Source of the DNA: Acidobacteriota bacterium
GTDB lineage: Bacteria > Acidobacteriota > Thermoanaerobaculia > Multivoradales > Multivoraceae
Assembly: GCA_003388555.1 (NCBI GenBank)
Contig: QQVD01000053.1
Location: 62,001-126,000 of the forward strand
Direction: 5' to 3'
Length of the DNA: 64,000 nucleotides
Position numbers and translations under genes: made by a program. The notes under the pieces are model-generated. The model was given only the letters and a program-made list of their open reading frames with translations, had not been told where the DNA came from and made no database searches. Below are positions 3,302 through 43,630 of the stretch, in pieces. Numbering within the stretch: position 1 is the stretch's first letter; every line of letters starts with the position of its first letter.

Positions 3302-3440
3302 AGGTCGACCGTTGGAGGGTCGCTGGGGGATCATGGGAGCACCTTTCGAAGCTCGTCGCCGTCGGCGAGCGGGCGACTACGTTCCGGATCGTGGTCCGCT
3401 CGGCCGCCGCGTCGCGGTCGTGCGTACCGCTGCGAACCTT

Positions 3441-3618
3441 AACCCGGATTCGTTCGTGAACACCGTGGCGAGCCCGTCAAGGCGCCCGTCTGGCGGGCAC
3501 CGCAGGGCCGAAGGCGTTGGTCGTACTCGAGGTACGTTGCAGGCGCCGGAGGTCCGAGGACGACCGCCATACGGGATGACTCTGCGGGCGCAGTAGGTGC
3601 TCGTGAAGAGTCCGGGTC
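3441..3618 (+). repeat. Dispersed repeat with inverted ends, copy 1
   Basis: About 178 bases closely resembling 43350-43530. Both ends carry an inverted ACCCGGAY block (left ACCCGGAT, right end reading ACCCGGAC on the other strand) followed by a short TTC-GTGAA-like arm. The two copies share the blocks GCGAGCCCGT, TCTGGCGGGCACCGCAGGGC, GGCGTTG, the near-palindrome around TCGAGGTACG and CAGGCGCCGGAG. No open frame is conserved between copies, so this looks like a non-autonomous, MITE- or REP-like element or a structured RNA, not a gene. It lies between two convergently transcribed ends or promoters, outside any coding sequence. Confidence 0.75.
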
Positions 3619-43349: not shown

Positions 43350-43530
43350 AGCCCGGATGACTCATGAACGACGTAGCGAGCCCGTGGAGGCGCCGGTCTG
43401 GCGGGCACCGCAGGGCCGGAGGCGTTGAGTCGTGCTCGAAGTACGTCGCAGGCGCCGGAGATCCGAGGACGCCCTTCAGACAATGGATGCATCAGCGGGC
43501 GCAGCAGGTGGCTCATGGATCATCCGGGCT
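43350..43530 (+). repeat. Dispersed repeat with inverted ends, copy 2
   Basis: About 181 bases resembling 3441-3618 in the same orientation. Left end AGCCCGGATGACTCATGA and, on the other strand of the right end, AGCCCGGATGATCCATGA: near-perfect terminal inverted repeats. The inside shares GCGAGCCCGT, TCTGGCGGGCACCGCAGGGC, GGCGTTG and CAGGCGCCGGAG with copy 1. It ends about 100 bases before the ATG of the carboxylesterase gene. Confidence 0.8.
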
Positions 43531-43630
43531 AGCATCGCGGGCTCCCTCACACCTTCTCGTCTCGCCTTCCACCGCGGGGCCAGCGCCGGCGCCGGCGCCG
43601 ACCCGCAACGTGCCTGTCAGGAGACCGCAC

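Follow-up and report, generated by a model that had tools for sequence, protein, structure and literature searches.

Two related elements in the window and their copies in the host genome

The window, a stretch of 64,000 nucleotides from an Acidobacteriota genome, contains two related stretches, copies A and B (Table 1). Copy A is bordered by two genes of the minus strand, a family-9 glycosyltransferase gene and an ORF without Pfam match that we call a putative succinate dehydrogenase cytochrome subunit because it adjoins the flavoprotein gene. Copy B is flanked by divergent genes encoding an alpha/beta hydrolase and a carboxylesterase, and neither copy visibly breaks a gene. An earlier note, made from the sequence alone, had described the pair as a repeat with inverted ends that could fold, and had allowed that its shared blocks might be chance GC-rich runs. 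The two copies can be aligned over their whole length, and a BLASTN search of the genome with copy B retrieved copy A (167 nt, 82% identity, E=7.1e-39), which rules out sharing by chance. The terminal inverted repeats (TIRs) are real, reading (A/G)CCCGGAT at both ends of both copies, and the capacity to fold was also confirmed, each copy forming one long rod with an RNA minimum free energy of -97.4 (A) or -96.9 kcal/mol (B).

Table 1. Positions of the two copies and of their parts in the window (R1, covariance model of the core)
Feature	Position	Strand	Remarks
Copy A of the MITE, long form	3443..3616	+	174 nt between outer CCCGG/CCGGG; E=7.1e-39 versus copy B
Left terminal inverted repeat, copy A	3443..3459	+	CCCGGATTCGTTCGTGA; consensus CCCGGATTATTCATGA
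Right terminal inverted repeat, copy A	3601..3616	-	TCGTGAAGAGTCCGGG
Core hairpin, copy A	3486..3574	+	R1 alone weak (14.9 bits, E=0.42); homology to the copy B core by alignment
TTAA left flank, copy A	3439..3442	+	Probable YTAR target-site remnant, given the YTAR preference of relatives; right flank TCTG mismatched
Copy B of the MITE, long form	43352..43528	+	177 nt
Left terminal inverted repeat, copy B	43352..43367	+	CCCGGATGACTCATGA
Right terminal inverted repeat, copy B	43513..43528	-	TCATGGATCATCCGGG
Core hairpin, copy B	43395..43482	+	R1, 21.7 bits, E=0.0055
CTAG right flank, copy B	43529..43532	+	YTAR-type target site; left flank TGAG, decayed

The family is not limited to these two copies, a possibility that the note had raised against itself. 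Searches of the host genome (6.8 Mb in 74 contigs) by BLASTN and other means detected four more long and five short copies, giving about 11 in all: six long ones (approximately 180 nt), with rods of -90 to -122 kcal/mol, and five short ones (approximately 100 nt). A short copy corresponds precisely to a long one that has lost its hairpin tip through a deletion between two CGCCCGTC direct repeats. The family has the features of a MITE: it is small and multicopy, carries no transposase gene, has CCCGGATTATTCATGA at both ends and shows a target-site duplication (TSD) and an occupied and an empty site. The latter come from copy E2 (contig 11, 86249-86425), which splits an AAA_14/DUF4143 gene of the host genome, an interruption of the kind that the note had proposed to look for. 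When E2 and one CTAG are removed, the reading frame is open and both domains are recovered across the junction (169 and 93 bits). CTAG is palindromic, and therefore a 4-bp duplication is indistinguishable from a 2-bp TA duplication at E2. In the window copies the TSDs have decayed (TTAA/TCTG in A and TGAG/CTAG in B), so the proof of mobility comes from E2 and from relatives in other genomes rather than from the window copies themselves.

IS1380-type ends and target sites

The CCCGGATTATTCATGA terminal repeat is present in 39 of 396 genomes of the phylum, as determined with an 18-base pattern with one mismatch allowed, while the reversed pattern, used as a control, gave almost no matches. Most pairs of this repeat are spaced 180 nt, and in two genomes (G268 and G365) they are spaced 1.7 and 2.0 kb, respectively. 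These longer stretches encode IS1380 transposases (NCBIfam NF033539, 356 and 237 bits, cut-off 180 bits; Pfam DDE_Tnp_1_4). Complete insertion sequences bearing the MITE TIRs were found at L109 (NF033539, 356 bits, flanks CTAG/CTAG) and L110 (237 bits, flanks CTAAG/CTAAG), and the TIR is common to the MITE and the IS1380-family elements L109, L110, L189, L197, L190 and L192. Other IS1380 elements in the phylum bear related end types: two copies in G267 have CCCGGATTATGCATAA ends flanked by CTAG left and right, and CCCGCATTTCTCACAC ends are found in G335 and G312, two genomes in which MITEs with CCCGCATTTCTCACAC ends are co-resident with the IS1380 genes that bear them.

To describe the target site, we used the 41 IS1380-type elements in which both ends were recognised. 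YTAR was found at 30 left and 33 right flanks, mostly as CTAG or TTAA, and the two flanking 4-mers were identical in 20 of the 41 elements, all of them YTAR, compared with 8.5 expected if the flanks were independent (permutation p<5e-5). The TSDs that the note had wished to see are thus present in these relatives and in copy E2 but not in the window copies. We favour a duplication length of 4 to 5 bp, since identical 4-mers are in excess and L110 is flanked by CTAAG on either side.

Altogether, these results indicate that the window stretches are very probably relic copies of an IS1380 (piggyBac-related)-type MITE. The proposal of a non-autonomous mobile element moved by a transposase encoded elsewhere in the genome was therefore right about the kind of element, a MITE with IS1380-type ends, but is not supported as to the place of the transposase: no PF13701 match, and hence no IS1380 transposase, is detectable in the 74 assembled contigs of the host genome, and matching autonomous elements were found in other genomes of the phylum. 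Because of this, the host-genome copies, which have diverged from one another, look like relics, and their mobilisation in trans is something that we infer. An IS1380 transposase would have bound the terminal repeats, excised the element and inserted it at YTAR; the host genome would later have lost this transposase, leaving its MITE copies to decay. A past burst driven by an IS1380 element since lost would be the simplest reading of these copies. The IS1380 elements of the family-level relatives G010, G015 and G016 were considered as the source and discarded because they have other ends (CCTTGATTCGCGAATA, and CCCCAAAACAAGCGAG with CTAG flanks). A plasmid collection searched with three element types yielded no full-length relative.

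The MITEs are not plain deletion derivatives of IS1380 elements because the latter lack the core: a search of the IS1380 loci with covariance model R1, built from eight cores, gave no match, and the similarity between MITE and IS1380 elements ends approximately 20 nt in from the terminus. IS1380-type ends also serve other rods, since the single-contig genome G376 (L121 and L122) has the same terminal repeat at 65 sites around a shorter, different interior of 122 nt.

A conserved rod hairpin forms the interior

Model R1 detected the rod core in at least 63 of 396 sampled genomes and at least 45 of 211 genera of the phylum, both lower bounds because ten candidates were scored per genome. The core was also present in 32 of 46 genomes of a second phylum, that of MAG SKS1.bin41, with up to 74 copies per genome. 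A pattern derived from the tip of the hairpin retrieved the same core with other ends, namely GGGGACCTCTAAGAACC in MAG SKS1.bin41, CAATAACCTGTTC in a deltaproteobacterial MAG and CTAGCCCAGATAATTC in a Polyangiaceae MAG. Rfam 15 gave no relevant match at gathering or permissive thresholds. Two unusual arrangements were observed: at L065:690-1015 of MAG SKS1.bin41 the core is nested in a longer hairpin directly 5' of a tRNA gene, and at L019:1466-1683 of G046, a genome of the same order, two tandem core hairpins lie approximately 124 nt apart with no recognisable terminal repeats.

Covariation, which the note had suggested as a check, strongly supports the fold. Among 47 distinct R1 matches, 93.9% of the pair cells were standard (71.7% when shuffled) and double changes occurred at 27 of 29 pairs. 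The covariation score was 0.592, against 0.182 when shuffled and at most 0.076 with the partners slid, on an alignment (A5) that was fitted to the model and to which arm-to-arm correction of the palindrome could contribute partly. The stems turn over almost completely and the unpaired motifs are kept, for instance GATRC-AAGG opposite CAACGCAGYAGAY. What occupies the interior is a conserved hairpin of rod shape whose internal-loop motifs are fixed, and not the remnant of an insertion sequence.

Insertion sequences are the usual origin of MITEs, and correction keeps the arms of a palindrome complementary; the rod could on these grounds be the fold-back junk of an ordinary internal-deletion MITE, alike between genomes through recent common descent. 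We consider this unlikely, because IS1380 interiors contain no rod, because the stems have turned over completely while unpaired loop motifs that arm correction would erase as mismatches are kept across two phyla, and because the histories of ends and interiors are discordant, as described below.

The two strands of the rod are not equivalent. Read on the strand that the tip defines, the core contained 68 G-U pairs to 22 A-C mismatches, with one fixed wobble left out, and the outer arms, which lie outside the model, contained 102 to 57 (26 elements had more G-U and 9 more A-C), although nominal p values for this excess overstate the case because the cells are not independent. Strand-symmetric DNA evolution is expected to produce equal numbers of both. 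The excess suggests selection on one folded single strand, which may be RNA or single-stranded DNA. When the strand of the rods was compared with that of the neighbouring genes, no orientation bias was found, and for this reason a role in host mRNAs is not favoured and selection for the element itself is.

The strong covariation with conserved loops and the G-U excess on one strand would also fit a host-encoded structured RNA family, either a cis-regulator or an sRNA, that had merely become repeated. This explanation is very unlikely: mobility is evident from the TSDs, the TIRs shared with IS1380 elements and the interrupted gene, the relation to neighbouring genes and their strand is inconsistent, Rfam holds no match, and copy number differs widely between related genomes. 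That the rods are kept as bidirectional transcription terminators or insulators is highly improbable; in the second phylum the GC-rich stem is indeed bordered by an A/G-rich and a T-rich tract, but the copies of the host genome and of the IS1380 group have no T tract.

We give hardly any credence to the REP-like family that the note had offered as an alternative, that is, a REP/REPIN-like family moved via single-stranded hairpins by a Y1 (RAYT/TIRYT) tyrosine transposase of the IS200/IS605 superfamily: three similar Y1_Tnp genes do lie close together in the host genome (G000 contig 21, 97264-109111, L048) with a bare 26-nt palindrome of the MITE end, AGCCCGGTTTATTCATTATCCGGGCT, approximately 3 kb upstream of the first of them, the rod includes GTAG beside its stem, and 13 of the 14 rod-rich second-phylum genomes contain Y1 genes, but the element measures about 180 nt with paired TIRs that match IS1380 elements and a TSD that is unexpected for Y1 transposition, no examined Y1/RAYT-type locus is bounded by it, and among 30 second-phylum Y1 loci and the host-genome Y1 cluster just one has a rod nearby. 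At these loci, Y1 genes do not adjoin rods save in that one coincidental case (L278), in which the Y1 gene sits in its own transposon, inserted beside the rod. At this locus (L278:1330-2890) the Y1 transposon has GGGGTCAG-type ends, and a duplication places the 3' end of the neighbouring gene on either side.

Proposed exchange of ends and relation to known elements

We compared ends and interiors. The same core occurs with IS1380-type ends of several subtypes, sometimes in one genome, and with many non-IS1380 ends in the second phylum, where several end types surround one core type within single genomes. In G319 the same interior is found with three ends, CCCGGATTATTCATGA, CCCGCTTTATTCATGA and CCCGCATTTCTCACAG. 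L118 and L119 have identical ends (32/32) and interiors that are just 80% alike, whereas L251 and L260 differ in their ends (23/32) and share interiors that are 92% alike; L260 and L270 have a common end type (28/32) and interiors 78% alike. From this comparison of sequences, the discordant histories of ends and interiors appear to reflect either exchange or rapid concerted change of the ends. The ends seen in the second phylum do not resemble those of IS1380 elements, and a mobiliser was not found there; in the genome of L059, a transposon-sized GGGGACCTCTAAGAACC pair was not detected and TIR pairs lie just 0.1 to 0.3 kb apart.

Further end structures were observed in other rods. Among the second-phylum rods, L211-L250 (in G450, G441 and G461) have an asymmetric left end, in which an additional stretch of 15 to 30 nt duplicates a portion of the terminal repeat (such as ACCTCTAATAACTTGAATTTTTTGGGGACCTCTAAAAA), and a single copy of the terminal repeat at the right end; a transposase was not found for them. 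At L130:1146-1330 two inverted rods carry a further end, GGAGCCTGTCCGAGTATTAGG, and IS1380-type rods are present in the same genome as well.

We tentatively propose that the rod may be a selfish stem-loop module spread across phyla, with one strand selected in its folded form as RNA or single-stranded DNA, that outlives individual transposases by acquiring new terminal repeats. Elements would retain a successful rod and swap their ends to track the resident transposase. As for what the rod provides, we hypothesize that regular loops make a quasi-palindrome more resistant to destruction or a better substrate for transposition: regular G-A-rich internal loops could let an arm-to-arm palindrome persist, be copied and escape enzymes that cleave palindromes or dsRNA. 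Our preferred reading is that selection on the rod would serve the persistence of the element rather than a host function.

MITEs are usually regarded as what is left of a single insertion sequence after deletion and decay, with an inside that is irrelevant. In the rod elements, conservation and spread are greatest for the inside, and it is the ends that are exchangeable. If the proposed module is real, these elements would make it possible to test directly which features a non-autonomous element has to retain in order to survive and would explain how MITEs can outlast their transposases. They would also constitute a structured family undescribed in the open PMC literature, which annotators and RNA-motif searches would meet repeatedly in uncultured bacteria.

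The enterobacterial ERIC, a 127-bp imperfect palindrome, is likewise a MITE, comparable in size to the rod element and built on an interrupted rod. An AACGCA-like motif may be common to ERIC and the rod element. Membership of ERIC in the rod family was rejected, since R1 gave no match and the best overlapping score was 7.5 bits (E=0.23 in 720 bases, filters off). More generally, bacterial MITEs (Chunjie, QMITE2, Correia elements, ERIC; PMC10969869) resemble the rod element in their small size, lack of genes, TIRs, short TSD, hairpin-forming transcript, and intergenic and occasionally intragenic insertion, and the rod element differs from them by a conserved, covarying interior common to elements with different ends; the review PMC10969869 does not mention IS1380. 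The GTAG/CGTC REPs, REPtrons and TIRtrons (PMC3733652) are palindromic and the rod likewise has GTAG and CGTC beside its stems, but REPs are single palindromes of 20 to 40 bp tagged with GTAG on one side, have no paired TIR or TSD and are tied to Y1 transposases, whereas the rod element is approximately 180 nt long and no such tie was found. IS1380-family elements (NF033539/PF13701) have the same 16- to 20-bp ends starting with CCCG and the same CTAG, TTAA or CTAAG duplications, and the MITE differs from them in having no transposase and an interior unmatched to the insertion sequence. IS1380 transposases form the outgroup of piggyBac trees, and animal piggyBac elements duplicate TTAA, with variants including TTAG and CTAA, and have ends most of which start with CCC (PMC10813416). 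These are eukaryotic autonomous transposons, and their likeness to the MITE is limited to the rules of the ends, namely a TTAA-type 4-bp TSD and TIRs that start with CCC.
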